A stretch of DNA of 20,913 bases from a virus. Below, one piece after another: positions 2,765 through 15,124 of this stretch. The stretch covers positions 1-20,913 of IMG/VR virus record IMGVR_UViG_3300021519_000090. One strand, 5' to 3'. The notes beneath the pieces are model-generated. The model ran no database searches. It was not told the origin of the DNA and was given only the letters and a program-made list of their open reading frames with translations. How positions within the stretch are numbered: the first letter of the stretch is position 1; the number at the start of each line of letters is the position of its first letter. Both the position numbers and the translations under genes were made by a program.

Positions 2765-3259
2765 TTACGTTGTGTGGCTCATGAAGGGCCGAAAGCACGC
2801 CCGCCAGACAAAAGTATTTGAGTCGTGGGCTGCTGCCGGAAGCGGAATCGTGACAGTGCTCGTTAATGATGTCGCGGTCAAAGCAACAGAGGAAAAGCCT
2901 CCGTATGTGAATACGCCGGTTGTGGCGTTTCTCGTTCGTATCGCATATTCAACCGTGCATGCAATCAACGGGTTTCTGAGAGTCCATCGCGCCTCGTAAG
3001 TCGTCGATGCTGCCGAGTTGTAAGAGCTTGATCCTATCGTGTGGCAGACTCGCGAAGCATCGTCACCGGGCGGCGTGATTTCCCGCGAGCGTTCATATTG
3101 CGCCTCATACCATTTACCAAAGGACGATGTAGGACCAACCGATATGGTTCCATCGTTACGCCATGAGCTTACAATGGTTGGGCCTCCCACGAATGACACT
3201 TGAGTATCTCTGTCCTCAAGCAAAACGCGACCGTGGTATCTGGCGGAATAAATTGGCAT
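2765..3259 (-). CDS. Hypothetical minor tail protein
   Basis: 164 residues from ATG 3259, which overlaps the stop of the upstream gene as TAATG. A start at 3289 would add ten residues but lies inside the upstream gene. The protein begins MPIYSARYHGRVLLEDRD and is rich in Ser, Thr, Tyr and Trp with an alternating strand-like pattern (for example SLTSTVTIPLPA), typical of small beta-rich virion proteins. No known domain recognised. A 36-nt gap separates it from the next gene. Tight coupling to neighbours argues for a distal tail or fibre-associated component. Confidence 0.6.
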   Translation of the reverse strand: MPIYSARYHGRVLLEDRDTQVSFVGGPTIVSSWRNDGTISVGPTSSFGKWYEAQYERSREITPPGDDASRVCHTIGSSSYNSAASTTYEARWTLRNPLIACTVEYAIRTRNATTGVFTYGGFSSVALTATSLTSTVTIPLPAAAHDSNTFVWRACFRPFMSHTT

Positions 3260-3831
3260 TAGGCTGCTCCAGGATAAAGCACTGTGCAATCAAGCTTTCC
3301 GCTATTGCTCGCATCGTCCTCGAAATAAAGCGAGATGGGGCCGTATCCATTTTGCGATTGAAAAACGCCGTCAACGTAAAAGGCTAGGATGAACTCAAAA
3401 GTGCTACCCGTGCCTTTGCTGAGAAGGTCGGCGTCAGTGGGGGCTGTTGCGACCAGGCTTAGCACCACGATCTTATTCGTAAGTTGCTTCGCAAAAAGTC
3501 CATCGGGTGTAAGCACCCATGTGCCTGTCACGGAAACGATTACATATTCGTTTCCGGCTCCCGTCATCGTCATGTTTGGCGGCGGGGTATCATTAATTAA
3601 GGTTCCGCTTATCAATGGAATCACTCCACCGATGGTGCCGGGAGCCACATAGACTTTCAGCCCGTCGTTATAGACTTGAAGCGCAACAAAGGAAGCGCCG
3701 TCGATCGGAATGTCTGGCGTGAAATTGGGAGTCCTGCCATCCACGGAGCTGATAAAATTTCCTCCCTGCTGTCCAGCCGCGAAAGGGGCCGATGCCATGC
3801 GCAGTGCATCTTTGGAAAGAGTCAGGTTCAT
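3259..3831 (-). CDS. Hypothetical structural protein of distal tail
   Basis: 190 residues. The start overlaps the upstream stop as ATGA (3828-3831). The sequence is beta-rich and Gly/Thr/Val-rich: GGNFISSVDGRTPNF near the N-terminus, a central GAGNEYVIVSVTGTWVLTPDG, and a Tyr/Asp-rich end. Such short beta proteins between tape measure and fibre are usually minor tail or carbohydrate-contacting baseplate proteins. I cannot assign a family. The start is well fixed by the overlap. Confidence 0.6.
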   Translation of the reverse strand: MNLTLSKDALRMASAPFAAGQQGGNFISSVDGRTPNFTPDIPIDGASFVALQVYNDGLKVYVAPGTIGGVIPLISGTLINDTPPPNMTMTGAGNEYVIVSVTGTWVLTPDGLFAKQLTNKIVVLSLVATAPTDADLLSKGTGSTFEFILAFYVDGVFQSQNGYGPISLYFEDDASNSGKLDCTVLYPGAA

Positions 3832-4559
3832 GCTTTTGATTTGATTGGATCGTAAATTTCATCAATCCATTTACGCGGGCCTGACAATGCAGCAGAACGG
3901 CTCACCTCGTAATAGACGTTGCCAATAGAACGAATGCGAATGCCGGTATAAAGCCAGTTTCGTTCTCCGCTCAAACTGGGGATGTTCTGACTCAACGTAG
4001 CAGACTCAATGATTTTTCCAAGCAGTGCAAACTCGTCGTCCGTAGGCCATTCTTCCTGGATGCGCGTTTGTGACGCAACCATGATAGGGCAGTTATAGGA
4101 GCGAACGCCCGCGAAAGGATTTACCTCTCCGCTGTCTGCGGGGTATTCTGGCCGGAATCCTGCGAATCTTCCATCTTGGGAATAGACCGCTCCATTTTCT
4201 GGTGCTGTCCTAGTGCCTCCGATTTTGATCCAGTTCGGATGCGAGTCGATGGGCTCAACGGAGCATGTAATGTCAAGAGTCAGGTCGTCGGTGAACTCTG
4301 ACTTGGTATGCGCTGTGTCCTTGCCTTCGTAATGAAGCTCAATACGAATATCTTCGCACCCGGCCTCTCCTGTATGAATGATAGCACCAGATACCAGTAC
4401 TACGTTGGCGTAATCATCCGCTGGGTTGCCTTGCTCAAGAATTGCCGCATCGCCGCTGCTCATTCTATAAGCCACATCGTATGAGGCGAGGCCGTTTCGC
4501 TCGAAAGCATATCGCGCTCCCGGCTGGCGGATTAGTCCTGTTTCTCCAAAAAGTGGCAT
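3828..4559 (-). CDS. Minor tail / distal tail protein candidate
   Basis: 243 residues, ATG one base after the tape-measure stop. It lies exactly where siphoviruses keep the distal tail protein (Dit-like, or lambda M/L region). Visible are an N-terminal GETGLIRQPGARYAFER, an acidic middle (DDLTLDITCSVEPIDSHPNW) and a C-terminal segment with several Trp/Tyr. No zinc or Fe-S cysteine cluster like lambda gpL is present; only a few isolated cysteines. The assignment to distal tail is by position, not by recognised sequence. Confidence 0.6.
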   Translation of the reverse strand: MPLFGETGLIRQPGARYAFERNGLASYDVAYRMSSGDAAILEQGNPADDYANVVLVSGAIIHTGEAGCEDIRIELHYEGKDTAHTKSEFTDDLTLDITCSVEPIDSHPNWIKIGGTRTAPENGAVYSQDGRFAGFRPEYPADSGEVNPFAGVRSYNCPIMVASQTRIQEEWPTDDEFALLGKIIESATLSQNIPSLSGERNWLYTGIRIRSIGNVYYEVSRSAALSGPRKWIDEIYDPIKSKA

Positions 4560-4560
4560 A

Positions 4561-5871
4561 TTATTTGATTGTTACATTACCAAGCGATGAAGGGCCGGGA
4601 GATTTTATAGGCTGTGCATTTCCCCATGCTGCAATTATTCTAACGTTATCAAGAGTCTCCTGCTGAATCTTAGTTTGTTGCTCTGCATGGCCGATTAAAC
4701 TTCCTGCGCCAGTGCCTCCACCGCCACCAACTGAGGCCAAGCTAGAAACTCCAAAATTCTGGCTGAAGCTTTGGTTGGAAAAGCCTTCGTTATTTTTGCT
4801 GTTCTTCGCGACGCCTTCGAATTTTTTACCTGCCTCTTCGATCTTTGCCCACATTTCAGGCGTTCCGAATGTTACAGATTTGAAAATGTCTTTCAGGCTT
4901 TCTGCCAATGATGCTTTTTCTTCCTTCGGCGTTTCCGATGGCTCCGCATATCCAGCCGCGACACCTTCAAGGGTGCTATCACGGTCTTTTTTCATGTCGT
5001 TGGCTGTGGACTCATCAAGGAATCCCATCATAACCGCCATGGAGTCGAGCAGGTCAGCGGCTTTGTTGAGAGCGGCTAAAAATCCAAGAGAGAAAAATTC
5101 AATCACTCTGCCGAATGCGCTTTGCAAAGTCTCGTAGAGATAGACGCCAATGCTTTTGATCGACTCCCAAATCGTGGAAAGAGCTTCCTCGAATCCCATT
5201 GATGCAAACAAGGCGATGCATTTGCCCAAAATTTCCGAGGCATACTTAAACGCAGCGGCGGCAAGTTCGCCCATGGTCTGCCAGAGTTGGCCGTCAACGG
5301 CAAGCTGGTATATAATACCAACGGCCTTAGCGATGGGCTCGGCGAAAGCCTGACCCCATGCGCTCAAATCTAGGGCCGCTAGCCTGTCCAGTAGTGGGTT
5401 GATAACTGGCGCGATTTGATCCGCGACGCCGAGCCAGAAACCTTTGATCCGCTCGCCCACGGCGAACAGTTTGAGAGAGATGTCGCGGAAAATATTCGCG
5501 TCCCGCTCCATGATCTCGGCATTTTTGCCAAGCAGTTTGCCCGCCTCGCTGAAAGTCACGCCCTTTTCGACGGCGGTTTTGAATTGGAGATACTGGCCGG
5601 TTGCCATCCCGGTGGCGTGAGCCATGTTCGCCAATTCCTCCCCGGTCATGAAAATTTGAAGGAGGTTGTCCTTCATCGCTCCCGCAAAGGACGCCAGGGC
5701 GGAAGCGCCTTTTGTGAATGCACTAGCGAGGATGTTCCCGGCGGCGACAGCCAGCGTATCGCGGATGAAAGATCCCATTTGCTGCGCGATCTTCATCACT
5801 GCCTTGCCCCCGGCCTCGAACGCCGAGAAATCGAGCCCAATCGTCGCCTGGGCGCTGCCTTTTTTAGCCAT
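4561..5871 (-). CDS. Tape measure protein
   Basis: 436 residues. It starts MAKKGSAQATIGLDFSAFEAG, the usual N-terminus of tape measures ('xIxLDxxxFxxG'), then about residues 30-90 hydrophobic Ala/Gly-rich helix, a long helical body with several hydrophobic stretches (about 150-290), a charged Lys/Glu segment (about 305-350), and a Gly/Ser/Gln-rich end with a GGGGGTGAG run. This is short for the family; at about 1.5 angstrom per residue the tail would be near 65 nm. The ATG overlaps the stop of the thiol-oxidase gene by 8 bases. Role: sets tail length, chaperoned by the upstream G/GT proteins, and is ejected to help DNA entry. Confidence 0.85.
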   Translation of the reverse strand: MAKKGSAQATIGLDFSAFEAGGKAVMKIAQQMGSFIRDTLAVAAGNILASAFTKGASALASFAGAMKDNLLQIFMTGEELANMAHATGMATGQYLQFKTAVEKGVTFSEAGKLLGKNAEIMERDANIFRDISLKLFAVGERIKGFWLGVADQIAPVINPLLDRLAALDLSAWGQAFAEPIAKAVGIIYQLAVDGQLWQTMGELAAAAFKYASEILGKCIALFASMGFEEALSTIWESIKSIGVYLYETLQSAFGRVIEFFSLGFLAALNKAADLLDSMAVMMGFLDESTANDMKKDRDSTLEGVAAGYAEPSETPKEEKASLAESLKDIFKSVTFGTPEMWAKIEEAGKKFEGVAKNSKNNEGFSNQSFSQNFGVSSLASVGGGGGTGAGSLIGHAEQQTKIQQETLDNVRIIAAWGNAQPIKSPGPSSLGNVTIK

Positions 5872-6202
5872 CCTTGAGCATTATTCCAAAATTCTCATAA
5901 TGCAAACTGATTGCAGTATCGTGCCGGGGCTTGCCGATCTCGCGGTTGATCCAGTCGTGAGCAGCAACGGTCCAGTTGTGGAATGCCTCACGGCCTGCCA
6001 GCGAGGGCGGCTGGCGCTCCACGAGCAGGCACCATTTACGGTGGCACGACGAGCAGCCAGTTGAATTATCCTCCACGATCTTTCCCCACGAGGCCAGCCA
6101 TTGCACAGCGCCTGCCCGTGCCGCGTCGTCAGCGATCTCGGGGTATTGGAGCGCGTAGGCGTGAAGGACGCGCCATAGGGCATTGCCAACGGCTGCGTTC
6201 AT
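5864..6202 (-). CDS. Erv1/Alr-like FAD-dependent thiol oxidase
   Basis: 112 residues that follow the Erv1/Alr pattern from end to end: a G...W..LH..A..YP block at residues 6-21 (W10, L13, H14, Y20-P21), a CxxC redox pair CSSC at 50-53, a PP-SL-REA-F-W segment (about 65-77), and H82-D-x-x-N86...G90-K91-P92. In the family these Trp, His, Asn and Lys residues bind FAD and CxxC oxidises dithiols, passing electrons to oxygen. There is no separate shuttle CxxC, so it is a minimal domain. It is coupled by ATGA to the upstream gene and overlaps the tape-measure start. It may form disulfides in tail proteins or act in the host. Catalysis is inferred. Confidence 0.7.
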   Translation of the reverse strand: MNAAVGNALWRVLHAYALQYPEIADDAARAGAVQWLASWGKIVEDNSTGCSSCHRKWCLLVERQPPSLAGREAFHNWTVAAHDWINREIGKPRHDTAISLHYENFGIMLKDG

Positions 6203-6762
6203 AGGCCGGAGTCATTCGCGGCCTGTGCCAGTTTGCGGTTGATGTAATCCACCATGTCAGCGGTCTCGGCGTCGAGCGCCTGCTGCATGGCGTTGCCTTT
6301 GATCTCTGCCGTATGCTCCGCCCCTGGTTGCTCGTTGATGAGTGTCACCTGCACGCTGGCGCTGCCACGCTTTTGCTCAATTTTGCCACGCTTGGGGCCG
6401 TTGACTCGCTTCGGAATCTTGGGGGAGCCGCCGAGTGCTTCCACAGCGGGAAACCATCCCGTGGCGGTGAACATGCGGGCGTTCACGCGGGCGCGGATTT
6501 CTGCCTTGATTTGCTTCGCCCGCTTTCCTCCTTTTTTCTGGATGCCGCCACGCACCTTGAGAGCAAAGCCTATTTTCGCCGCATCCGCCTTGATCTGCGC
6601 GGCAGTAGGGGCGTTTCCCTTGTAGATCGTGATGAGCTTCATCCCCACATTTTTCGCCCTCCGCTTCACTTCGGTATCAGGATCAACGTTTTTTCGCAGG
6701 TCGAGATACTGCTTCAACGCCGCTTTCATGGCGCTGTCGTCGTATGTGAAGGCGTCGGGCAT
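6199..6762 (-). CDS. Hypothetical basic tail-region protein
   Basis: 187 residues from ATG 6762 (MPDAFTYDD); the frame runs back to 6777 but the ATG at 6762 is closer to the usual tail-gene layout. Strongly basic: a Lys/Arg/Gly-rich middle (RGGIQKKGGKRAKQIKAEI) and a C-terminal helix that ends in DYINRKLAQAANDSGL. Basic proteins of this size with a helical C-terminus are common near tail completion genes (HK97 gp10-like), but here it sits just before the thiol oxidase and tape measure, so that label is only a guess. It lies about 20 nt downstream of a strong terminator with no visible promoter of its own, so its expression must depend on read-through. Confidence 0.65.
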   Translation of the reverse strand: MPDAFTYDDSAMKAALKQYLDLRKNVDPDTEVKRRAKNVGMKLITIYKGNAPTAAQIKADAAKIGFALKVRGGIQKKGGKRAKQIKAEIRARVNARMFTATGWFPAVEALGGSPKIPKRVNGPKRGKIEQKRGSASVQVTLINEQPGAEHTAEIKGNAMQQALDAETADMVDYINRKLAQAANDSGL

Positions 6763-6779
6763 GGGTGAAATTAGCACAC

Positions 6780-6807
6780 AAAAACGCCGCTGGCAAAACC
6801 AGCGGCG
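6780..6807 (-). terminator. Rho-independent terminator closing the four-small-gene unit
   Basis: A perfect 9-bp stem (6785-6793 pairs with 6799-6807) with a 5-nt loop, followed on the minus strand by five T (6784-6780) and then GTGTG. It lies about 20 nt after the stop of the last small gene (6828). The other strand has a weaker T-rich tail (CTTTCGTTTTC), so it may work in both directions. Confidence 0.85.
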
Positions 6808-6827
6808 CTTTCGTTTTCTTCGTGCTG

Positions 6828-7208
6828 CTACTCGTCTCCCTGCGGCTGAGTCCAGACATCAGCGGTGATGATCCGCTGACTTGTGAGACACACCAGCGGC
6901 TGTTGCTGGCGAAGTCCCATCTTGGACTCCCACGCGGCGCGGCGGTCAACGACTCGGATCGTGACAGCTTTGACGCGCTCGTTTCGGTGTGCGCGCTCCT
7001 TGGCTGCATCGGTGGCAGCAGTCAGTGCTGCTTCCAGTTCCACGACGCGGGCTTTAAGGCTCGCATCCTGGACGATCACGACGTGCGCTTGCATGCTTCG
7101 CAGCTTGGCGGCTGTGTCAGGCATGCGGGCGATGGTCTCGGCGCGGGGCGGCATGCGGAGCGTTTGACGGCTGCGCAGGGTGATGGTTGGCGATTTCGTG
7201 TTTCTCAT
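6828..7208 (-). CDS. Hypothetical small coiled-coil protein
   Basis: 126 residues, ATG at 7208, four bases after the previous stop. The N-terminal 35 residues are basic (RSRQTLRMPPRAE). About residues 45-80 form a likely coiled coil (LKARVVELEAALTAATDAA). The C-terminal third (WESKMGLRQQQPLVCLTSQR) is of mixed character. No family recognised. It is the last gene of a four-gene unit that has its own promoter and terminator, and is not part of the standard tail gene order, so it is probably accessory. Confidence 0.6.
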   Translation of the reverse strand: MRNTKSPTITLRSRQTLRMPPRAETIARMPDTAAKLRSMQAHVVIVQDASLKARVVELEAALTAATDAAKERAHRNERVKAVTIRVVDRRAAWESKMGLRQQQPLVCLTSQRIITADVWTQPQGDE

Positions 7209-7212
7209 GTGG

Positions 7213-7419
7213 TTACTTTGGTTCGTTTACCGGGCTACCGGCGGAGCGTGATTCGTAGTGGGAAAGAAAGCGTTCGATTTCATCGGCTACCGTGACGGGC
7301 GGGCCGTTTCCGAGGATTTGCCCCTCACCGGTCCCGCACATCCAGCCGATGCACAGGGAGTCGATGAAAGGATCTTCTTTTTTGAGGGCGTTGAGTCGTT
7401 CGAGGAATGATGGATTCAT
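7213..7419 (-). CDS. Hypothetical small protein
   Basis: 68 residues. The ATG overlaps the stop of the AT-hook gene (ATGA), which fixes the start. Begins MNPSFLERLNALKKEDPF, with a Cys/Gly-rich middle (CIGWMCGTGEG, two cysteines five residues apart) and a C-terminal helix (DEIERFLSHYES). No domain recognised. Part of the small-gene accessory unit. Coding is supported by the tight overlaps on both sides. Confidence 0.55.
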   Translation of the reverse strand: MNPSFLERLNALKKEDPFIDSLCIGWMCGTGEGQILGNGPPVTVADEIERFLSHYESRSAGSPVNEPK

Positions 7420-7583
7420 ATTTTTGCTTTTTTCGGTCTGCCTCGAGGGCGAGAGCCGGGTTTAACGGGTGCCGCGCCGTTTTTTCTCACGGCCTCGGCT
7501 TTTTTGCGGGACTTCGCCGCCCCCATGATGGAGGCGGCGTTGATTTCGTCGGCATGGCCGCATTGTGTGCATGTGTGAGTCAT
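7416..7583 (-). CDS. Small CxxC and AT-hook protein
   Basis: 55 residues from ATG 7583 (MTHTCTQCGHADE). The same frame is open further upstream to 7811, but that part lies across the preceding gene and its codons look like a shadow. Two features stand out: one CxxC pair (C5, C8: half of a zinc-ribbon, needing a partner or a second site to bind zinc) and a C-terminal RPRGRPKKAKI, a textbook AT-hook core (RGRP) that binds the minor groove of AT-rich DNA. The middle is Ala/Lys-rich. Inferred role: small DNA-binding factor, maybe acting on the AT-rich divergent region 300 bp upstream. Confidence 0.6.
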   Translation of the reverse strand: MTHTCTQCGHADEINAASIMGAAKSRKKAEAVRKNGAAPVKPGSRPRGRPKKAKI

Positions 7584-7656
7584 GGCGGTTAGCGGGAACC
7601 GGAAAGCAGGGCAAATGGCGGGCGGATATTTAGTCCGCAGGGGCCTTTTGTGCTGT

Positions 7657-7869
7657 TTAGCCGTTTTGCTGTCTGTTTTCTTCAGCATCCACCTCGTAGC
7701 GAATATCGCTGCCGTCTTCCGCCCTGATGCTGTACGTGACGTAGGAGTTTTGTCCGTTTGCGCGACGTACAGCCTTGGAGTGCTTGATGCGCTTCGCGAC
7801 CGCTGTAGCAATGGTGCGATGGGTGCTGATAATGGTATTATTAAAGGTGTCGGTAAGGATGATTTTCAT
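7657..7869 (-). CDS. Hypothetical small protein, first gene of accessory unit
   Basis: 70 residues (MKIILTDTFNNTIISTHRT at the start, an acidic end DIRYEVDAEE). Predicted strand-helix-strand pattern: a short strand, a helix around ATAVAKRIKHSKAV, a second pair of strands (YVTYSIRAEDG). No recognised family. It is the first gene after a sigma70-like minus-strand promoter (-10 at 7904-7909), with a short leader of about 28 nt that contains a purine-rich but non-canonical ribosome site. A 73-nt gap with a small hairpin separates it from the next gene. Confidence 0.6.
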   Translation of the reverse strand: MKIILTDTFNNTIISTHRTIATAVAKRIKHSKAVRRANGQNSYVTYSIRAEDGSDIRYEVDAEENRQQNG

Positions 7870-7903
7870 ATTTTCGTTTCTTAGTGGTTTGCTCTGACAA
7901 GTG

Positions 7904-7931
7904 ATAATAACCTAACGCTTGGTTTACGCAA
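7904..7931 (-). promoter_or_regulatory. Sigma70-like promoter for the small-gene unit
   Basis: On the minus strand: TTGCGT (7931-7926), a 16-base spacer, then TATTAT (7909-7904; five of six consensus bases). Start of transcription expected near 7897, about 28 bases before the first ATG at 7869. The surrounding DNA is AT-rich compared with the rest of the window. Confidence 0.55.
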
Positions 7932-7975
7932 GTGAAGAATGAAATATTTCTGAAACTTTTTTTGTAATCGCCTCT

Positions 7976-8028
7976 TTTGACAGTGAGCACGGGAAAATTC
8001 AGAAAGCGCATTTGACAGTGAGCACGGG
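7976..8028 (+). repeat. Two exact 18-bp direct repeats between divergent promoters
   Basis: TTTGACAGTGAGCACGGG occurs at 7976-7993 and again at 8011-8028, 35 bp apart start to start (between three and four helical turns). A diverged partial copy (TTGACTGTGC) at 8041-8050 forms the -35 box of the plus-strand promoter. The core GTGAGCAC is nearly palindromic. Placement upstream of the plus promoter and about 70-120 bp upstream of the minus promoter suggests binding sites for a regulator, but both copies also contain a TTGACA hexamer and could be degenerate promoter copies. Confidence 0.75.
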
Positions 8029-8040
8029 TGATTCTCCCTC

Positions 8041-8069
8041 TTGACTGTGCCTTTCAGTCAGTGCATAAT
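8041..8069 (+). promoter_or_regulatory. Strong sigma70-like promoter, plus strand
   Basis: TTGACT (8041-8046), exactly 17 bases, CATAAT (8064-8069). Five of six consensus bases in each box with ideal spacing. Expected start of transcription near 8076, right where the first RNA hairpin begins. It points against the late tail genes. The same TTGACT-N17-AATAAT design recurs at 18060-18032. Confidence 0.75.
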
Positions 8070-8075
8070 TCGCCC

Positions 8076-8174
8076 GACTCCAAAAGAGTCTGCTTCGGGT
8101 GCAACTGGAGCCAATCCAGCTATCCCGAAGCGAAAGCCTGATTTCCGTCTGCACCCCGGAGTCAGGCTTTTTTC
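8076..8174 (+). ncRNA. Candidate structured small RNA, about 98 nt, three hairpins
   Basis: From the expected start to the T-run the sequence folds almost completely. Hairpin I: GACTC (8076-8080), loop CAAAA, GAGTC (8086-8090). Hairpin II: GCTTCGGG (8092-8099) pairs with CCCGAAGC (8124-8131), with an inner stem CTGGA (8105-8109) / TCCAG (8115-8119) and loop GCCAA. Hairpin III: AAAGCCTGA (8133-8141) / TCAGGCTTT (8162-8170), with inner TCCG / CGGA, ends in six T. A precise promoter, tight hairpins and terminator mark an independent small RNA. Its size and three-hairpin shape recall plasmid RNA I or phage regulatory RNAs, but I recognise no family. It is fully complementary to any late transcript that reads through from the tail chaperone gene. 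Possible roles: antisense control of late genes, or a host-acting regulator. Confidence 0.7.
8133..8173 (+). terminator. Rho-independent terminator of the small RNA
   Basis: Nine-bp stem 8133-8141 / 8162-8170, with inner TCCG (8144-8147) / CGGA (8157-8160), followed by T at 8168-8173. Only a few bases separate it from hairpin II. On the opposite strand the stem is preceded by six A, so it would be weak there. Confidence 0.8.
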
Positions 8175-8288
8175 ATGTCCTGATTCTTGGCCCTCTCAGT
8201 CAAAGGGGCCAGCGAAGCGGAGACGCCAGCAACGCGACTATGCAGCCGGTGAGACGGCAGTGCTTAACACCGCGTCAAACGTGCTGGA

Positions 8289-8325
8289 CTCGCAGGGAGC
8301 CGTCATAATACGGTGCTAGTGCGAG
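8289..8325 (+). other. Further hairpin of the noncoding region
   Basis: CTCGCA (8289-8294) pairs with TGCGAG (8320-8325). Inside, CCGT (8300-8303) pairs with ACGG (8310-8313) around a CATAAT loop. Together with smaller stems at 8188-8211 it shows that structure continues beyond the small RNA terminator. No function can be assigned; it may belong to the 3' untranslated part of the tail-chaperone transcript. Confidence 0.4.
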
Positions 8326-8328
8326 GAT

Positions 8329-8396
8329 AAACAAAACTGGCAGGGTTCCCCTCGTCCTTCCCGCTTACCAGTGGGGAGGAGGGAGGGGTTTGCCTG
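8329..8396 (-). terminator. Candidate terminator after the tail chaperone gene
   Basis: A long GC-rich stem (CCCCTC 8348-8353 with GAGGGG 8383-8388; TTCCC 8358-8362 with GGGGA 8373-8377; CAGG 8341-8344 with CCTG 8393-8396) begins 16 bases after the chaperone stop. On the minus strand it is followed by CCAG and then TTTTGTTT. The T-tract is imperfect and displaced by four bases, so this could instead be an mRNA-stabilising or processing structure. Confidence 0.45.
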
Positions 8397-8411
8397 AATG
8401 CTGACGCGAAT

Positions 8412-9151
8412 CTATTCCTTCCCACGCAAAGCCGCCAGCAACAGTCCCCGCGCCTGCTCTGTCACGTCCTCGGCAACGTCGTATTCGTCGATCCAGACCG
8501 GATGAGCGCCGTTATTTAGGGCCAGGGCGCAGAGATACTGCTGCCCCCGTGCGAACGGAAGCCTTTTCAAAAGCTCCGCCTCACTCATGCCCAGAGGCCC
8601 CGCCAAGGCTATGACGTAACCGGCGCGGAAGCAGGGTCGCGCTTTTTTTTTGCATCGCCATCGACTGCGGGGCCATCGTCATTCTCCACAACGGCGGTTG
8701 AGCGGTTGATCTTCGCAAACTCGGCTTGCACGTCAGCCATCGCCTCCATGATCTCCGCCATGGTCTTTTCATTCATCACCCGGCGCCGGAGTTTGGCGAG
8801 ATGGGTAATATCATCGTCGCACGCATCCATTTCGGAATCTTCGCACGTCAGGAGCGCGATAACCTCCGCGATTTTCGGCACGATGGCCCCGGCTTTCGTC
8901 GGATCAAACTCGGCGCTTTTTGGCGACAGGATGAGATGGAATTTTTTGGGGTCAATGCCGATGGATTTGAAGCCAGCGGCCCCGGTGATGAAGAAATTGT
9001 TAGCACGACGGAGGATGTCTACGACGAGCGCCGTCACACGGCGGCATGGCTTGAATCCCACGATTGCAGCTTTTGTGCCGCTGAATGCGTCGTCAAGGTT
9101 CTGCTCGCGTTGAGCCTCGGGGGCCAGTTTGGATGCGTCTAGGAGTGCCAT
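8412..9151 (-). CDS. Tail assembly chaperone fusion (G-T type) by -1 ribosomal frameshift
   Basis: The upstream frame (from 9151) carries GCA AAA AAA AAG, in which A AAA AAG (8648-8642) is in exact X XXY YYZ phase. A -1 slip there enters the frame ending at 8412, open with no stop from the slippery site, and adds 76 residues that begin ARPCFRAGYVIALAGPLGMS. The fusion would be about 246 residues. This is the layout of lambda G/GT and of most long-tailed phages: the short form and the less abundant fusion both bind the tape measure protein during tail assembly. The added domain is acidic and helical (ELLKRLPFARGQQYL, DEYDVAEDVTEQARG). The 64-residue frame from TTG 8606 is unlikely to start on its own. 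Confidence 0.8.
8609..9151 (-). CDS. Tail assembly chaperone, short form (lambda G-like)
   Basis: 180 residues from ATG 9151, five bases after the previous stop; a TTG at 9160 in frame is a less likely start. Helical and charged with an acidic region (LTCEDSEMDACDDDITHL, about residues 101-118) and a flexible C-terminus (VVENDDGPAVDGDAKKKRD). Sequence identity to lambda gpG is not obvious; assignment rests on size, charge, position after the tail tube genes, and the frameshift site near the end. Stops at TAG (8611-8609), about 30 bases after the slippery site. Confidence 0.75.
   Translation of the reverse strand: MALLDASKLAPEAQREQNLDDAFSGTKAAIVGFKPCRRVTALVVDILRRANNFFITGAAGFKSIGIDPKKFHLILSPKSAEFDPTKAGAIVPKIAEVIALLTCEDSEMDACDDDITHLAKLRRRVMNEKTMAEIMEAMADVQAEFAKINRSTAVVENDDGPAVDGDAKKKRDPASAPVTS
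8642..8648 (-). promoter_or_regulatory. -1 frameshift slippery heptamer A AAA AAG
   Basis: Part of a run of nine A then G on the minus strand (8651-8642). The phase matches the incoming reading frame, giving the same heptamer as the well-known dnaX site. A GC-rich stretch that can pair (CGCC around 8627-8624 with GGCG near 8604-8601) follows and may act as stimulator. Transcriptional slippage on the A9 run is an additional possibility. Confidence 0.8.
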
Positions 9152-9156
9152 GGTGG

Positions 9157-9756
9157 TCAATCTGCGCCACGGAAAAGCCGCTCGCTCCTCCGGTTGGCGG
9201 TGGTTTCGGATTCGAGCGGGTTAAGCGTCACAGCCACGCCGTTTCTTTTTAGCGATCGGCAGAATTTCAGGAAAGGATTGCGGTTCAGCTCCTGGATGCT
9301 GTCACACATGACGCACCAGTTACAGAGATGGTCGTAGAGGACCTGGATCACGAACTGCAAAGAAGCATCGACGCCGCCGCGCTTCACTCGTTCGGCCAGG
9401 TCGGTCATTTCGGCGCGCTCGCTGCTGTTGATCGTTCCAATCTCGTTTTTCTGGCGGAGTTTCGCCAGTGCATGCCCGGCGGCGACCATGGAGCACGTCA
9501 GGCGCTTAAAAAGCGGATGCTCGATCTCATACGCGAAGGAAATTTCCACCGTCGCAAGGTCATTCATGCCGCCGACTTCCGTAATTCCCTTTTGCGTAAC
9601 TGAAACGATGCGTTTGGCGTCGTAAGTGACCATGATCGGCAGCGTGCCACGAGCGGGAAAGCCGAGACTGCCAAGGGAGCAAGCCAGCATCGGGTCTTTC
9701 GTTGACCATATGCCGGTTGCGGGCGCGAGTTGATCTAAAAGCCCGAGGGCAGACAT
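9157..9756 (-). CDS. Hypothetical tail protein
   Basis: 199 residues, start overlapping the tail-tube stop (TAATG). Mixed alpha/beta with a cysteine-bearing middle (HLCNWCVMCDS, with two CxxC-like spacings at about 143-150) and several Arg/Lys. No family recognised. Position between the tail tube candidate and the tail assembly chaperones is where some siphoviruses keep a second tail or tail-completion protein. The cysteine cluster (C-x2-C-x2-C) could bind metal. Confidence 0.6.
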   Translation of the reverse strand: MSALGLLDQLAPATGIWSTKDPMLACSLGSLGFPARGTLPIMVTYDAKRIVSVTQKGITEVGGMNDLATVEISFAYEIEHPLFKRLTCSMVAAGHALAKLRQKNEIGTINSSERAEMTDLAERVKRGGVDASLQFVIQVLYDHLCNWCVMCDSIQELNRNPFLKFCRSLKRNGVAVTLNPLESETTANRRSERLFRGAD

Positions 9757-10127
9757 TAGATGCCGTCGTTATTCTCGGCGCTGGCGCGGAACTTTGCCCA
9801 TTCGCCTGCCGTCTCGGTGTAGTCCGCGCTGACGCAGACGTAAACACTACCGGGTGAGGCCATGTTGCCGGTCCACGCGGTGCCAGGTGCCGTCATCGAC
9901 GCGCCCACGACAGAAACGCAGATGCCGCCAGCTCCGCCGCCGGTGATCTCGCCCTCGGCGTCGTGCGCAGACATCACATTTTTCGTGAACCCCTGCACAT
10001 TTTGCCCGCAGGCATCGACGGTCTTTTTGTATTCGCAGGTGGTTTTTGCAGAATACGATTTCGCGTTGATGCCGGAAATCGTGCCGACACAACGAGAGAG
10101 AAAAGCGGTGGAGCCAAAATTAGCCAT
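9756..10127 (-). CDS. Major tail tube protein candidate
   Basis: 123 residues, beginning MANFGSTAFLSRCVGTISG. Small, Gly/Ala/Thr/Ser-rich with alternating strands, a pattern that fits a tail tube subunit; the sequence is short for the family (140-250 usual). A glycine patch (EITGGGAGGICVSVVG) sits at about 60-75. It follows the tail terminator candidate and precedes the chaperone pair, the canonical location of the tail tube gene. Assignment is by order and composition only. No clear ribosome-binding site precedes it. Confidence 0.5.
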   Translation of the reverse strand: MANFGSTAFLSRCVGTISGINAKSYSAKTTCEYKKTVDACGQNVQGFTKNVMSAHDAEGEITGGGAGGICVSVVGASMTAPGTAWTGNMASPGSVYVCVSADYTETAGEWAKFRASAENNDGI

Positions 10128-10145
10128 GATAGTGTGCGGTGAAAA

Positions 10146-10610
10146 TTACAGAACAGGTTTCTTCAGTTTTGCCGCCGCGTTGAAAGTTTGCCCCATTGCA
10201 ACTAATTTGCAAGAGTAAACCGCCTGATGGGCTTTGTCGGTGGGCGTGCTGTCTGTCGATGTGACGCGGATTTCGTAGCAATGCCAGTCGTTACGGATGG
10301 CGGAAAGTTCGGCAGAAAGCTGCTTCCAATGGATCGACAGAATCTCTTCGATGGCTGCGCATTTCGCCTCGTAATCGGTCAGGCTGTCTCCCGCAGGGAG
10401 CCGCACGGGGTAGAGCAACGTGATTTCCGCCTCAACGGCATAGACTCCTGACGGCGGGGCATCTTCCTCGCCCTGCTTGCAGGCAATGATTATGTCACCG
10501 TGGCGTTTTAGAGATTCCCCGGCCTGCTCGCGAAACTGGACGTTGGCAAGCACAGGATGAGCCTGGAATCGAGCAATCAAAGCCAATTCCGCTTTTTTCG
10601 TCAGCTTCAT
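10146..10610 (-). CDS. Tail terminator / tail completion protein candidate (gpU-like)
   Basis: 154 residues. Preceded by GGAGG ten bases before the ATG and coupled by ATGA to the upstream gene, so the start is secure. Helix at the N-terminus (LTKKAELALIARFQAHPVL), then strands with YAVEAEITLLYPVRLP, a helix with EAKCAAIEEILSIHWKQL, and a C-terminal strand pattern. This alpha-beta arrangement and the location before the tail tube gene fit the tail terminator family that caps the tail and docks to the head; a firm sequence match is not visible. Confidence 0.5.
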   Translation of the reverse strand: MKLTKKAELALIARFQAHPVLANVQFREQAGESLKRHGDIIIACKQGEEDAPPSGVYAVEAEITLLYPVRLPAGDSLTDYEAKCAAIEEILSIHWKQLSAELSAIRNDWHCYEIRVTSTDSTPTDKAHQAVYSCKLVAMGQTFNAAAKLKKPVL

Positions 10611-11086
10611 GTGCTCGCGTCCTCCGGTTCGCAGGTGGCAATTAGCTCATCCCCGTTTTCGTCGAATCCTTCGCTAATGGATGTGATGGTGAAGTTTTTC
10701 CACTCGCCCTTTGCCATGATGGCAACGGTGTGATGCTGCGCGGGGCGGTCCTTGTCGTTAAATTGAGATTGGCTGAAAACGAGGGTGATTGTTCCTGTCG
10801 CGCCCATGCCGCCAGCTTCCAACGGCATGCCCGCTTGCCCATCGTCCAGGCTGGCTTGGAACTCTACGTTGTCCCATCGCACCGTGACTGTCAGCCACGC
10901 CAGAGAGGCATGGAAGATGCGGTTTAGCTCCGCCTTGTCAGCGCCGAGGATGGTTCCCGATGGCAGCACGCCTTGCCAGTTCGCGTCGTTCGCCTTGCGG
11001 TTGGCGTCCCAAAATCCAGACGGATCATTCGCGTAAGCCGGTGCTGGCTTCTGCTGATTTTGGGGGCTGTTGACAGTGCGTGGCAT
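10607..11086 (-). CDS. Head-tail joining protein candidate (gpFII position)
   Basis: 159 residues from ATG 11086, two bases after the glycosyltransferase stop; an earlier in-frame start (11182) lies inside that gene and was not used. The N-terminal 30 residues are disordered (Pro/Gln/Asn), followed by a beta-rich body (LTVTVRWDNVEFQASL, TGTITLVFSQSQF, WKNFTITSISEGFDENG). It lies where lambda has gpFII/gpZ, between capsid and tail terminator. It could equally be a minor capsid protein. Confidence 0.5.
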   Translation of the reverse strand: MPRTVNSPQNQQKPAPAYANDPSGFWDANRKANDANWQGVLPSGTILGADKAELNRIFHASLAWLTVTVRWDNVEFQASLDDGQAGMPLEAGGMGATGTITLVFSQSQFNDKDRPAQHHTVAIMAKGEWKNFTITSISEGFDENGDELIATCEPEDAST

Positions 11087-11088
11087 GT

Positions 11089-11709
11089 TCAGTAGGTGCC
11101 AGGGATGGGATAGAGTGCGCTGCCCTCGTGTTGCGCAGCACACCGCCGGTCGATGAGGATTCGCCCGCCGATGGAGCGCCATAGATCACAAAAGGCGAAG
11201 TCGTCAGAATGTCCACCGAGAAGATTGCGCCAGAACTCCCACGATGGACGGCCAGTCTGTGCGCAGGTGTATGCTTGAACGTGATCCTTCAGCATCTCGA
11301 AAACGGAGCGATGCACGCGCATGAATCCTCGCGCCGTGCGCTTCACTTCGCAGAGAATTTGTTCCCCGTGGAACGGCTGCGGGTTTTCTGGCAGCGGTTC
11401 TGCTGGATAGGTCAGCCCGACTTCCTTCTTTGGGTAGATGCCAAAAACAAGCAGCTCGTCATGCGAAAGCAGGAAGTCGATTTGCTGCCGCGTGAAAACA
11501 ACGTCGGTGTCGATGATGATCATCTCGTCGCACTCGCTTTCGAGAAACGCAGAGGCGGCCATGTTCATCGCACCGTCTGGGTAAGGATAGCTGAAGCTCT
11601 GCGCGACGAATGCGCGGCCAGAGAATGCGCCGAGCATTGAGATTGCCCAACTCGTGCGGGAAAGTCCCATACCATTATCCACTATTGGAATGTAAAAAGG
11701 CTTGCTCAT
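11089..11709 (-). CDS. Glycosyltransferase-like protein (GT-A fold)
   Basis: 206 residues from ATG 11709 (MSKPFYIPIVDNGMG); an extended start at 11757 would add an artificial-looking tail. The segment ECDEMIIIDTDVVFTRQQI holds D67-T-D69, the DxD motif that binds the nucleotide-sugar metal in GT-A enzymes. Further on, GFMRVHRSVFE and GGHSDDFAFCDLWRSIGG match the acceptor-side acidic motif and 'C-x-x-W' block seen in phage and viral glycosyltransferases of this kind. The family's reaction is sugar transfer from a nucleotide sugar. It is not part of the core capsid set; it sits between the gpFI-like and joining genes. Possible targets: capsid or tail proteins, DNA bases, or host surface glycans. 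Confidence 0.7.
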   Translation of the reverse strand: MSKPFYIPIVDNGMGLSRTSWAISMLGAFSGRAFVAQSFSYPYPDGAMNMAASAFLESECDEMIIIDTDVVFTRQQIDFLLSHDELLVFGIYPKKEVGLTYPAEPLPENPQPFHGEQILCEVKRTARGFMRVHRSVFEMLKDHVQAYTCAQTGRPSWEFWRNLLGGHSDDFAFCDLWRSIGGRILIDRRCAAQHEGSALYPIPGTY

Positions 11710-11798
11710 TTGGTGATGTTGGAAAGAAAAAAACCCCAAGAATAGAAGCGGCGGCAACTACACGAGGGGCAATTCTGCGCGCCATGACGCGTCGCAAA

Positions 11799-12188
11799 TT
11801 ATTTCACTGGGTCGAATGCGAGGCGGAAATCAGCGTCCGTCCCCTGCCAGGTATGAGCGGTATTTTTCGCCGTGTGCGTCATTTCGTAGCTGTTCGGCGC
11901 GTGGATGCACAGAGCATACCGCTCGCCGGTTGCACGATGCACAAAGATGCCATGCGTGTATTCGTGGTCGAGCGGCTGCGCCGGGTCGATAACATCCGCT
12001 TTTTCAGGAGTTACGATCACCGGCAGCAATGACGGCGGAGGCGCGGGGCGGTTCGCTTCGTCGTCGAGTTCAAGCGCGGCGCGCAGATCATGCACGCTGC
12101 CGTTAAGGTCGATGTTTGCGCCGGTCTCGTTTCGCTGATTCGCGATGTCGAGCGCCTGCTTGCGCGAGAGGTTGTCGTATTTAGCCAT
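11799..12188 (-). CDS. gpFI-like DNA packaging accessory candidate
   Basis: 129 residues. The N-terminal 40 residues (LSRKQALDIANQRNETGANIDL, then GSVHDLRAALELDD) have the helix-extended-helix style and spacing of lambda gpFI's N-terminus (an 'xLxGTxxELxxRV' segment), followed by a Pro-rich linker and a C-terminal beta-rich domain (EYTHGIFVHRATGERYALCIH). Directly follows the major capsid gene, as gpFI does in lambda, where it helps packaging at the capsid-terminase step. Sequence match is partial, so confidence is moderate. Confidence 0.45.
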   Translation of the reverse strand: MAKYDNLSRKQALDIANQRNETGANIDLNGSVHDLRAALELDDEANRPAPPPSLLPVIVTPEKADVIDPAQPLDHEYTHGIFVHRATGERYALCIHAPNSYEMTHTAKNTAHTWQGTDADFRLAFDPVK

Positions 12189-12226
12189 GGATATTTACGA
12201 GGTGTTGTTTGGGTGAAGCGTGGAAG

Positions 12227-12263
12227 TAAAACGGGGCGCTCCGCCTTTCAGCAAAGCGCCCCG
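12227..12263 (-). terminator. Rho-independent terminator after the major capsid gene
   Basis: On the minus strand a 9-bp perfect stem (12263-12255 with 12240-12232, CGGGGCGCT / AGCGCCCCG), about 14-nt loop, then TTTTA. It lies in the gap between the major capsid stop (12287) and the gpFI-like start. Partial termination here would raise capsid mRNA over tail mRNA, a common phage arrangement. Confidence 0.75.
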
Positions 12264-12286
12264 CTGAGAACAACCACACGAAGAAA

Positions 12287-13366
12287 TTAGCTATACTGCG
12301 TTGCGATGAGATCGCCAGCGCGATTATTCGTCAGCGTAGGCTTATGGCTCATTTCGATTCGCAGAACTTCCGACTTGCGGGCAAGGTCGGGATACTGCTC
12401 GACGTAATAGCCACCTGCACCGGTGAAGTCGTGAGCGTCCTTGGACAGCGAAGGCATGCCGGAGGAATCGAAGCCGTTCCAGAACACGTTGGCCCCGATG
12501 CCGGAGAGCGTTGGAACCGCCACGCCGTCTGTCTCGCTTGCAGTGCCAGTGTTGCCAGCTTTGCAGACGAGCATGTAGGTGTTAGCCCAGATCGCAGTCA
12601 GCGACGGCGTGGCGCCATCGGCGGCGCTGTTGTAGTAGTTGTCGCCCACGAGAACCTGCTTGATGCCGTAGGGTGCAAGGCATGAGGTGAAGTTCGCGAG
12701 ATTGACTTCCGTGATGGCGTTGTAGGTGCCTCGCACGAACTGGAGTGTGTTCTGGCAGGTGCCGACACGATACCAGACCGGGCCGGACATCACAACCGTA
12801 TCAGGGCGCTCGCCGTTGGCGATGATGCGGCGGATGGAGGCAAGGATGTCCTGGATCGGATTCATCCCTGATGCACCGAGCACGTCACGGTTGGCGGCGG
12901 TGTAGGCAACGCCGCTGTTCGCCGCGGAACCCGCAACGTAGAGACTGCCGCTGCCGACAGTCGCGGCAGCGATGAGGTATTCTTTCGTCAGAGCGCCGAT
13001 CTCGGAGCCGAAACGGCCAGCGAAGAAGCTGAGAACGTCGAAGCGATTGGCGTAGTCGAGCACCATTTCACGCGGCACCATGATTTCGACACCACGAGGA
13101 GTGACGGTCAGAGTGGCGTCGCCAAACGTGGCGGACATGCGCTGGTAGCTCGTGCCCTGCGCGCGAATGTATTTGTCCGCGCCGATATGGCGAAGGCCGA
13201 GGCTCCCGCCGAGCGTGGCCTTGACCATGTGAGCATTGCGCCAGTTGATGCCGAGTCCGCCGAGAAGTTGATCACCGATACAACCCTGGACGGCCCCTTG
13301 ACCCTCCACGATTGCAAGGCCGAGTTCTTCGCGTGGAGTGGCACCGGATGTAGGATAGGCGGGCAT
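12287..13366 (-). CDS. Major capsid protein (HK97 fold, lambda E-like)
   Basis: 359 residues. It follows protease, scaffold-like and decoration genes and precedes terminator and joining genes. The C-terminal half has the region typical of lambda-type capsid proteins: 'LASIRRIIANGERPDTVVMSGPVWY', a P-domain spine helix followed by a strand, then GIKQVLVGDNYYN near residue 235 and a WANTYMLVCKAG stretch. Length (359) is close to lambda gpE (341). An early GGLGINWRNAHMVKATL stretch may be the N-arm. No Shine-Dalgarno precedes the ATG. It should form hexamers and pentamers of the icosahedral head. Confidence 0.8.
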   Translation of the reverse strand: MPAYPTSGATPREELGLAIVEGQGAVQGCIGDQLLGGLGINWRNAHMVKATLGGSLGLRHIGADKYIRAQGTSYQRMSATFGDATLTVTPRGVEIMVPREMVLDYANRFDVLSFFAGRFGSEIGALTKEYLIAAATVGSGSLYVAGSAANSGVAYTAANRDVLGASGMNPIQDILASIRRIIANGERPDTVVMSGPVWYRVGTCQNTLQFVRGTYNAITEVNLANFTSCLAPYGIKQVLVGDNYYNSAADGATPSLTAIWANTYMLVCKAGNTGTASETDGVAVPTLSGIGANVFWNGFDSSGMPSLSKDAHDFTGAGGYYVEQYPDLARKSEVLRIEMSHKPTLTNNRAGDLIATQYS

Positions 13367-13406
13367 GACTTTTTAGTTTTGAGAGGTGATTTTGAAGAGG
13401 GGTGGA

Positions 13407-13778
13407 TTATGCGACGCTGAACAGCTTCACCGATCCAAGCACGGCATCAGCGGAAGCGGCCTGCACCCACCGGCCCATGAGAGCGGCATTCGTGGAGGTC
13501 TTGGAAAACTTGCCGGACGCAGCGGCATAGGCGAGATCACCGATGGCACATGCCTCAGATGCGAGCGCCGGAACGATGCCCTCGTTTGCATCATAGGCCG
13601 CAATGACCTGCGATGCAGCGCCGTCAGTGGCAAGGACATAATCCCCACGAGCGGTGGCATCCTGAACAGCGCAGAGGCCAGAAGAGTTGGTCGTGACGCG
13701 AACGCCACGAACGGCGCTGGCGGCGGTGAGAGTAACGGTGAGGAGCGAGGCTCCGGTATCACATGCAAGTTCGGCCAT
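13407..13778 (-). CDS. Capsid decoration (cement) protein candidate
   Basis: 123 residues, beta-rich, Ala/Thr/Val-rich (ASLLTVTLTAASAVRGVRVTTNSSG). Directly upstream of the major capsid gene, the lambda gpD position. The sequence pattern (short strands, many A/T/S, 'GRWVQAASADAVLGSVKLFSVA' end in spirit) resembles DUF2190-like small capsid proteins. Not certain: some proteins here are minor capsid stabilisers. A related role is likely for the gene at 17610, which has a similar composition. Confidence 0.55.
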   Translation of the reverse strand: MAELACDTGASLLTVTLTAASAVRGVRVTTNSSGLCAVQDATARGDYVLATDGAASQVIAAYDANEGIVPALASEACAIGDLAYAAASGKFSKTSTNAALMGRWVQAASADAVLGSVKLFSVA

Positions 13779-13819
13779 ATTGTTAGGAGGTCAGAAGTGG
13801 GGGCGTCGGGTGAGGGTGA

Positions 13820-14821
13820 TTAGGAGCGGAACTTGTGATAGAGGTCCGGCTTGTCTTTCGCCATGCGGGCGATGGCGGAGGCGCGATTTGCACAACCCGT
13901 GGAAAGCTGGGTGGCGATGAAGGTTTCGCCGTCTTCGATTGCTGTCGGAGCAGCGGCCTCGCCAGTCTTGACGAATCCCGTTGACAGTTTCGTGAATGTG
14001 TCGTTGGCGACTTTGAGCGCGGCCTTTTCGATCAGCGCGTTCATTTTCTCCTGAGCGGATTCATCGTCCTTTTTCTTGGCATCTTCCTCTTTCTTCTTGT
14101 CCTCGTCGCTTTTTTCAGCGGGCGGAGCTTCGAGCTTGGCGAGACGTTCCTCGATTGTGCTGCTGCCCTTGGCGGTGGCAACGGCCTTGTTGATCATATC
14201 GCCAATGGCGGTCAAGTCTTCGGGAGAGAGGGGCATAGATTCAGGTGGTGATTCGATTTCTTCAAACAATGAATTAGTCGCCGCCGGACTGTCCACGAGG
14301 TCAATGCTACCCAAACGCAAACAATTTGCAATAGCAATTTTCTTTCCGGTGGCATCCTTGCCCATCGTGTATGCACTTTGGAAGTCGATGGAGTTGCCGA
14401 ACTCGTCAGCGAAACGGGAGGCGATGCCCTCCACAAATGAGCGGTGCGGAGTGCCTTCGAGGAACCTCAAATCAGCGTAAACATTCGTTCCTTCCACGCG
14501 GAAATTGGAGTAACCGCCGAACGTGTCGCGCACGGTTTCGCCGTGGTCGAGTTTCGCTTTCACCTCGGAGCGCGAGTTGCCAGACTGCGCGACTTCCGCC
14601 AGTGTCTGCGCGGTGATGTAGATGGGGATTTTCTCCAGCTTCTCATGCGCGGCGTCGTCAGGATTGAACGGACGCAGCTTGCCGTTTTGCTCAACGCAGA
14701 AATGCCCCTTGGCCGGCCCTTCAGATATCACGAGCACGCTGTTGATGCCATCGCTGCCAACGGTCTGCTTGGCTTCAAACAGGGTAAAGAACTCTGAACG
14801 AATGATGTTTTTCTTTTTCAT
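13820..14821 (-). CDS. Prohead protease fused to scaffold
   Basis: 333 residues. A Shine-Dalgarno GGAGG is ten bases before the ATG. Residues about 1-190 resemble the caudoviral prohead protease: a His in VKAKLDHGETV (H93), a following FRVEGTNVYADLRFLEG block, and GSIDLVDSPAATNSLF around 171-186 where S172 sits at the catalytic serine position. From about 196 on it becomes a charged helical scaffold (a Lys/Glu/Asp run at 235-260, then KMNALIEKAALKVANDTFTKL), as in lambda C/Nu3 fusions. M196 could start an in-frame scaffold-only form, but no ribosome site precedes it. Confidence 0.7.
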   Translation of the reverse strand: MKKKNIIRSEFFTLFEAKQTVGSDGINSVLVISEGPAKGHFCVEQNGKLRPFNPDDAAHEKLEKIPIYITAQTLAEVAQSGNSRSEVKAKLDHGETVRDTFGGYSNFRVEGTNVYADLRFLEGTPHRSFVEGIASRFADEFGNSIDFQSAYTMGKDATGKKIAIANCLRLGSIDLVDSPAATNSLFEEIESPPESMPLSPEDLTAIGDMINKAVATAKGSSTIEERLAKLEAPPAEKSDEDKKKEEDAKKKDDESAQEKMNALIEKAALKVANDTFTKLSTGFVKTGEAAAPTAIEDGETFIATQLSTGCANRASAIARMAKDKPDLYHKFRS

Positions 14822-14827
14822 GATTTG

Positions 14828-15124
14828 TTATCCTCCGGTGGTGAGAACGGTTTCTGCTGTCGGGTTTGCGTTCAGAGCATGGAGCACGCTTTCTGCCACA
14901 TCTTTGATGTTTGGATCATCGGGATCATCATCTGCCAGCGCCGTTGTTATTTCCGCAGTGATGGCGGGCACGTCCTCACTGACGCCATGCTCCCAGAGTT
15001 GCACAAGCTGCGGATATTTTTCAGCGTCCAGGCCGTCAACCCAGTCGCCAAACTCAGACCAGCCGAGATTGGAAGCGACCTGGTATTGATTGCCGTCTTC
15101 GTCGAATTGGATGTAAAGACTCAT
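14828..15124 (-). CDS. Small acidic protein, possible partner of portal C-terminal domain
   Basis: 98 residues, very acidic (for example ADDDPDDPNIKDVAES near the C-terminus). The ATG overlaps the portal stop (ATGA). Pattern: a short strand (LYIQFDEDGNQY), a helix (DWVDGLDAEKYPQLVQLWEHG), a second helix. No known capsid or scaffold homology recognised. Immediately after a portal that ends in a nuclease-like domain, its size, charge and coupling recall immunity-type partner proteins that block a toxic domain in the producing cell; this is inference. A plain capsid-assembly accessory is the alternative. Confidence 0.6.
   Translation of the reverse strand: MSLYIQFDEDGNQYQVASNLGWSEFGDWVDGLDAEKYPQLVQLWEHGVSEDVPAITAEITTALADDDPDDPNIKDVAESVLHALNANPTAETVLTTGG

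Follow-up and report, generated by a model that had tools for sequence, protein, structure and literature searches.

In a virus record of 20,913 bases that was analyzed in its entirety (here, the window), we describe a predicted small-RNA gene at positions 8076 to 8174 of the plus strand. With modest confidence, we read the locus as a phage accessory ("moron") gene for a small RNA that would act in trans or as a decoy, a reading that draws on two RNAs from one pair of phages. The anatomy of the gene, its structure, its conserved promoter, the replacement of its transcript in a close relative, and its place in a cargo slot were all obtained by computation. The predicted promoter, folds, and terminator support the original prediction, made from the letters of the window, of a compact and self-contained small-RNA transcription unit inside the tail gene block.

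In the window we recognized genes for the terminase, the portal, and the major head protein, all of them on the minus strand. Every phage structural gene that we found has this orientation, and the RNA gene does lie, as had been claimed, on the opposite strand. The best named match of the terminase is Verrucomicrobia phage P8625 (24% identity), from which a verrucomicrobial host is plausible. In scans of the viral collection, L002 was the one close relative, and the block was also present in a single more distant relative, L003. The window and L002 share 86 to 95% nucleotide identity (mostly 89 to 92%) over most of positions 5212 to 17253 and about 92% around the RNA locus. Besides the cargo slot, the main differences from L002 are at 3222 to 3844 and 4561 to 5211, in the downstream tail genes; the tape-measure-like protein is 72% identical at the amino acid level, and the product of the next gene is 77% identical. 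No integrase was found in the relatives, and no prophage relatives were found in bacterial genomes. The window also has an A-run (GC-A(8-9)-GCGC; 8609 to 8680, minus strand), shared with L002 and L003, at the end of the open reading frame (ORF) of a 183-amino-acid tail protein. A second overlapping frame follows the run, an arrangement that resembles a programmed frameshift of the lambda G/GT type.

The promoter of the small RNA, TTGACT-N17-CATAAT, occupies positions 8041 to 8069 of the plus strand (-35 element at 8041 to 8046, 17-nt spacer, -10 element at 8064 to 8069). It matches the consensus at 10 of 12 positions, in agreement with the near-consensus promoter that had been proposed. The predicted transcript is about 98 nt long and contains no ATG. 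Hairpin 1 (GACTC-CAAAA-GAGTC; 8076 to 8090) begins where transcription is predicted to start, 7 nt downstream of the -10 element, and is followed by hairpin 2 in the predicted fold (8092 to 8131; 8 bp, an internal loop, and 5 bp). An intrinsic terminator closes the unit at 8132 to 8173, with a stem-loop at 8132 to 8171 (15 pairs, one bulge, and a loop of 9) and a run of six T's at 8168 to 8173. A simple terminator scan missed this hairpin because it allows loops of at most 8 nt. The three hairpins and the six-T terminator are thus present where the original prediction had placed them.

The minimum free energy of the RNA is -47.4 kcal/mol (z = -7.05), and none of 200 dinucleotide shuffles was as stable; repeating the fold with 300 shuffles gave a z of -6.7. 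As a background, we folded 1,262 windows of 99 nt on a fixed grid covering both strands, for which the standard deviation of z was 1.14 and the minimum was -5.5. With a z of about -7, the exact transcript is therefore the most structured stretch tested. A long-range fold of the same RNA reached only -29.9, far short of the -47.4 of the local fold.

An accidental promoter ahead of accidental hairpins would be one alternative explanation of the locus. Taken singly, promoter-like and terminator-like sites do occur at chance frequency, and the 11 promoter-like sites found in the window are not unusual against the 8.8 expected. We collected 39 promoter-like sites by one rule from the window, L002, and L003 and ranked them by the fold of the next 100 nt relative to shuffles. 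The two homologous RNA promoters took ranks 1 and 2 (z = -6.35 and -5.96), and the third site had a z of -2.3. These ranks come from two phages with unrelated sequences behind the promoter. Together with the z of about -7 and with exchange boundaries that coincide with transcript boundaries (see below), they make pure chance extremely unlikely. Judged from sequence, it is difficult to account for two unrelated and extreme folds behind one promoter without invoking selection for RNA structure.

The exchange is seen in the comparison with L002. The promoter region is identical at 57 of 57 positions (8011 to 8067), so that the promoter differs only in the last bases of the -10 element. The alignment is then lost over 8068 to 8207, an exchanged RNA cassette with conserved flanks, and identity returns right after the terminator of the window RNA. 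The two transcripts cannot be aligned (the score was within the shuffled range, with 13% of shuffles as good). The L002 transcript is nevertheless about 100 nt long and just as strongly folded (z = -7.8). It opens with a hairpin (UACC-GAAA-GGUA) positioned as hairpin 1 is in the window, and it ends in a different 15-bp terminator hairpin with a U-rich tail. For this transcript, the three-part fold that includes the terminator (-43.4) faces competition from a long rod (-57.3). The RNA has been replaced whole in the only close relative, with no covariation. A different RNA at the homologous place indicates an exchange slot and not one conserved RNA family.

The RNA belongs to no family that we could recognize. 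The original prediction had named none and had called for an Rfam search; nothing in Rfam 15 exceeded the gathering threshold, and with permissive thresholds included, both the window RNA and the L002 RNA gave chance matches only. DNA similarity searches in phages and plasmids returned nothing useful and no close DNA relative of the RNA. The hairpin pattern had a single match among viral contigs, within coding DNA of an unrelated phage. Among 388 Verrucomicrobiota genomes there were six short matches to the RNA, the best of which (27 of 30 positions in L041) was judged to be chance. A tRNA search found none, and 6S RNA was rejected as a candidate for want of a matching shape in L002.

The cassettes might instead matter as DNA or as a transcription event, either as palindromic mobile DNA at this site or as a short terminated transcript serving as an insulator. 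Both cassettes have complementary ends (GCCCGACTCC and GGAGTCAGGC in the window; in L002, a perfect inverted repeat of 17 bp), which favors such an element. This explanation does not account for a fully conserved promoter directly before two unrelated structured transcripts. Moreover, we found no target site duplication and no further copies in the viral contigs or the 388 verrucomicrobial genomes, and the core site of an integron is absent from the sequence, on which ground an attC site was also rejected. We regard a DNA element or insulator as rather unlikely.

The conserved upstream region carries further elements. A perfect palindrome (TGACTG-N7-CAGTCA; 8042 to 8060) lies within the -35 element and spacer of the promoter and is a possible operator. 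The 18-mer TTTGACAGTGAGCACGGG occurs twice on the plus strand in the window, at 7976 to 7993 and 8011 to 8028 (about -100 and -65 from the RNA start), compared with a single copy in L002. In bacterial genomes the 18-mer had six matches, approximately the number expected by chance and mostly within open frames. A 21-nt version of the 18-mer, TTTTGACAGTGAGCACGGGAA, is present in two otherwise unrelated phage contigs (L011, position 5994; L012, position 563). In both it directly follows a terminator and opens a long intergenic stretch that separates the capsid gene from the gene before it.

The RNA is one part of a variable block. The alignment with L002 has two clear holes at the locus, one at the RNA (8068 to 8207) and one at a divergent small ORF (7592 to 7864), and the divergent regulatory region between them is 95 to 100% identical. 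The divergent ORF (7657 to 7869, minus strand) encodes 70 amino acids and is replaced by unrelated ORFs in L002 and L003, so that all three phages differ here; it had no match in Pfam, PHROG, or PADLOC. At the site of the RNA, L003 has a plus-strand ORF with a signal-peptide-like start (MKTAAFIFLISCTSALAQ). In three distant relatives (L026, L027, and L049), the tail-chaperone gene abuts the next tail gene and the block is absent. Presence of the block in the window, L002, and L003 and its absence from these three empty sites point to an insertion with changing content. By its sequence features, the RNA gene also has what an accessory gene would bring with it, a promoter and a terminator of its own within the late gene block. 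As read from these comparisons, the locus is a slot for cargo, headed by a conserved divergent promoter.

That divergent promoter is a candidate identified by reading the sequence (TTGCGT-N16-TATTAT; 7904 to 7931, minus strand). It would serve the downstream tail genes and is conserved in L002 and L003. It overlies a near-palindrome (AACCTAACGCTTGGTT and AACCTARCGYTWGGTT) that is also kept in both relatives and is probably an operator controlling these genes. Searching viral sequences for an operator-like pattern gave four further matches, all unrelated. On the other side of the RNA, a hairpin that may terminate the upstream late operon (8325 to 8395, minus strand) reads GGCA..CCCCTC/GAGGGG..TGCC followed by TTTTGTTT; it is conserved in L002 and ends before the RNA. 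The RNA gene is situated between the candidate terminator of the upstream operon and the candidate promoter of the downstream operon.

This layout bears on the suggestion, made in the original prediction, that the RNA is an antisense regulator of the RNA I type. Plasmid RNA I and CopA are antisense RNAs of about 100 nt with consecutive hairpins and a fast-changing sequence, and the window RNA is similar in all three respects. A cis-acting regulator of this kind would pair with read-through of the tail-chaperone operon, and the strand of the RNA (opposite to all late genes), its three-hairpin shape, and its convergence with the late operon would suit such a role. However, the conserved terminator-like hairpin appears to close the upstream operon before the RNA, and the downstream genes would be restarted by the conserved divergent promoter, which makes an antisense role on late mRNA unlikely. 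Nor does any gene or translation start overlap the RNA, whose sole long complement is its own opposite strand. When we searched the phage's own genome for targets (duplex energies being used as ranks only), no pairing was better than those of shuffled RNA. Unlike RNA I and CopA, the window RNA has no functional overlapping target RNA, and it is found in a phage tail block and not at a replication origin. The antisense role found no support, and we consider it unlikely.

A second kind of antisense RNA, the antitoxin of a type I toxin-antitoxin pair, would require a toxin nearby. The candidate is a convergent small hydrophobic peptide encoded by a 25-amino-acid ORF in L002 (MNSTGYLTACIVAVLAFLLRWLFLD; 5840 to 5960), which ends about 20 nt from the RNA terminator on the other strand. 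The L002 layout resembles that of convergent type I pairs whose 3' ends overlap. RatA, SR4, and SR6 are convergent type I antitoxins of Bacillus prophages, and the prophage-borne SR6 is 100 nt long (PMC5848175); the L002 RNA is comparable in that it, too, is about 100 nt long and converges on a short ORF. In the window, however, the counterpart (8190 to 8270, minus strand) is frameshifted by one base near the start and has no start codon, and the peptide is absent from L003, so that an intact frame next to the RNA occurs in L002 only. Most of the differences alter amino acids, and PHROGs finds no family for the peptide. A type I antitoxin is accordingly a very doubtful assignment.

We return to the accessory small-RNA gene as the favored explanation. 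A sigma-70-type promoter, probably under the control of its internal palindrome, would produce an RNA of about 98 nt that is protected by its 5' hairpin. Because transcription would stop at an intrinsic terminator belonging to the unit itself, the RNA would neither require nor disturb the late operon. The cargo slot of the gene would be bordered by the tail-chaperone pair on one side and by the tail genes that follow on the other, with the promoter kept and the transcript exchanged whole between near-identical phages. We infer that the RNA is transcribed, is stable, and has a target in the host on which it acts in trans. The target would most likely be a variable host component, either an RNA (messenger or regulatory) or a protein (RNA-binding or defense), reached by pairing or as a decoy. 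The stable 5' hairpin, the few single-stranded stretches, and the strong terminator fit a long-lived antisense or decoy RNA, and replacement of the whole RNA between near-identical phages fits a changing host target. The RNA may be an anti-sRNA, an anti-CRISPR, or another decoy. More tentatively, the phages may possess a "plug-in" slot in which a conserved, operator-controlled promoter drives interchangeable structured RNAs (sometimes a protein gene) that are swapped whole between near-identical phages, along with the divergent small protein, as host-specific or antidefense effectors.

Phage cargo genes are cataloged almost only as proteins. If a fixed promoter does serve freely exchanged, unrelated structured RNAs, phages carry swappable RNA effectors too. 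Because each is an orphan, such RNAs would escape both Rfam and homology searches; they could be sought by a conserved promoter and flanks around a nonhomologous, strongly folded, terminated insert.

Two known systems of phage small RNAs invite comparison. RNA-based anti-CRISPRs (Racrs) are small phage RNAs encoded directly downstream of a promoter and outside cas loci (PMC10651486), an arrangement that is predicted from sequence here as well. A solitary CRISPR-repeat mimic driven by a promoter would have to follow the CRISPR type of the host, which would explain the swap of the RNA. Yet the 388 Verrucomicrobiota genomes (a guess at the host) revealed no CRISPR repeat resembling the RNA and gave at most one short, chance-level match per genome, where a repeat array would give many; in addition, the hairpins are unlike a single repeat. 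Judged against these genomes, a Racr seems very unlikely. The nearest precedent, by analogy, is AgvB and AsxR (EcOnc01-03), the anti-sRNAs of lambdoid prophages in E. coli O157, which are Hfq-bound RNAs of 51 to 60 nt with a conserved 3' part and a variable 5' end (PMC4104026). In the present pair, by comparison, the promoter alone is conserved and the RNA of about 98 nt differs throughout, with no part kept between the window and L002, and the host lineage is another one. AgvB and AsxR nevertheless share with the predicted gene a transcription start of their own (here, a predicted one), a convergent orientation relative to late or cargo genes, and a fixed cargo position whose content varies between phages (PMC4104026).
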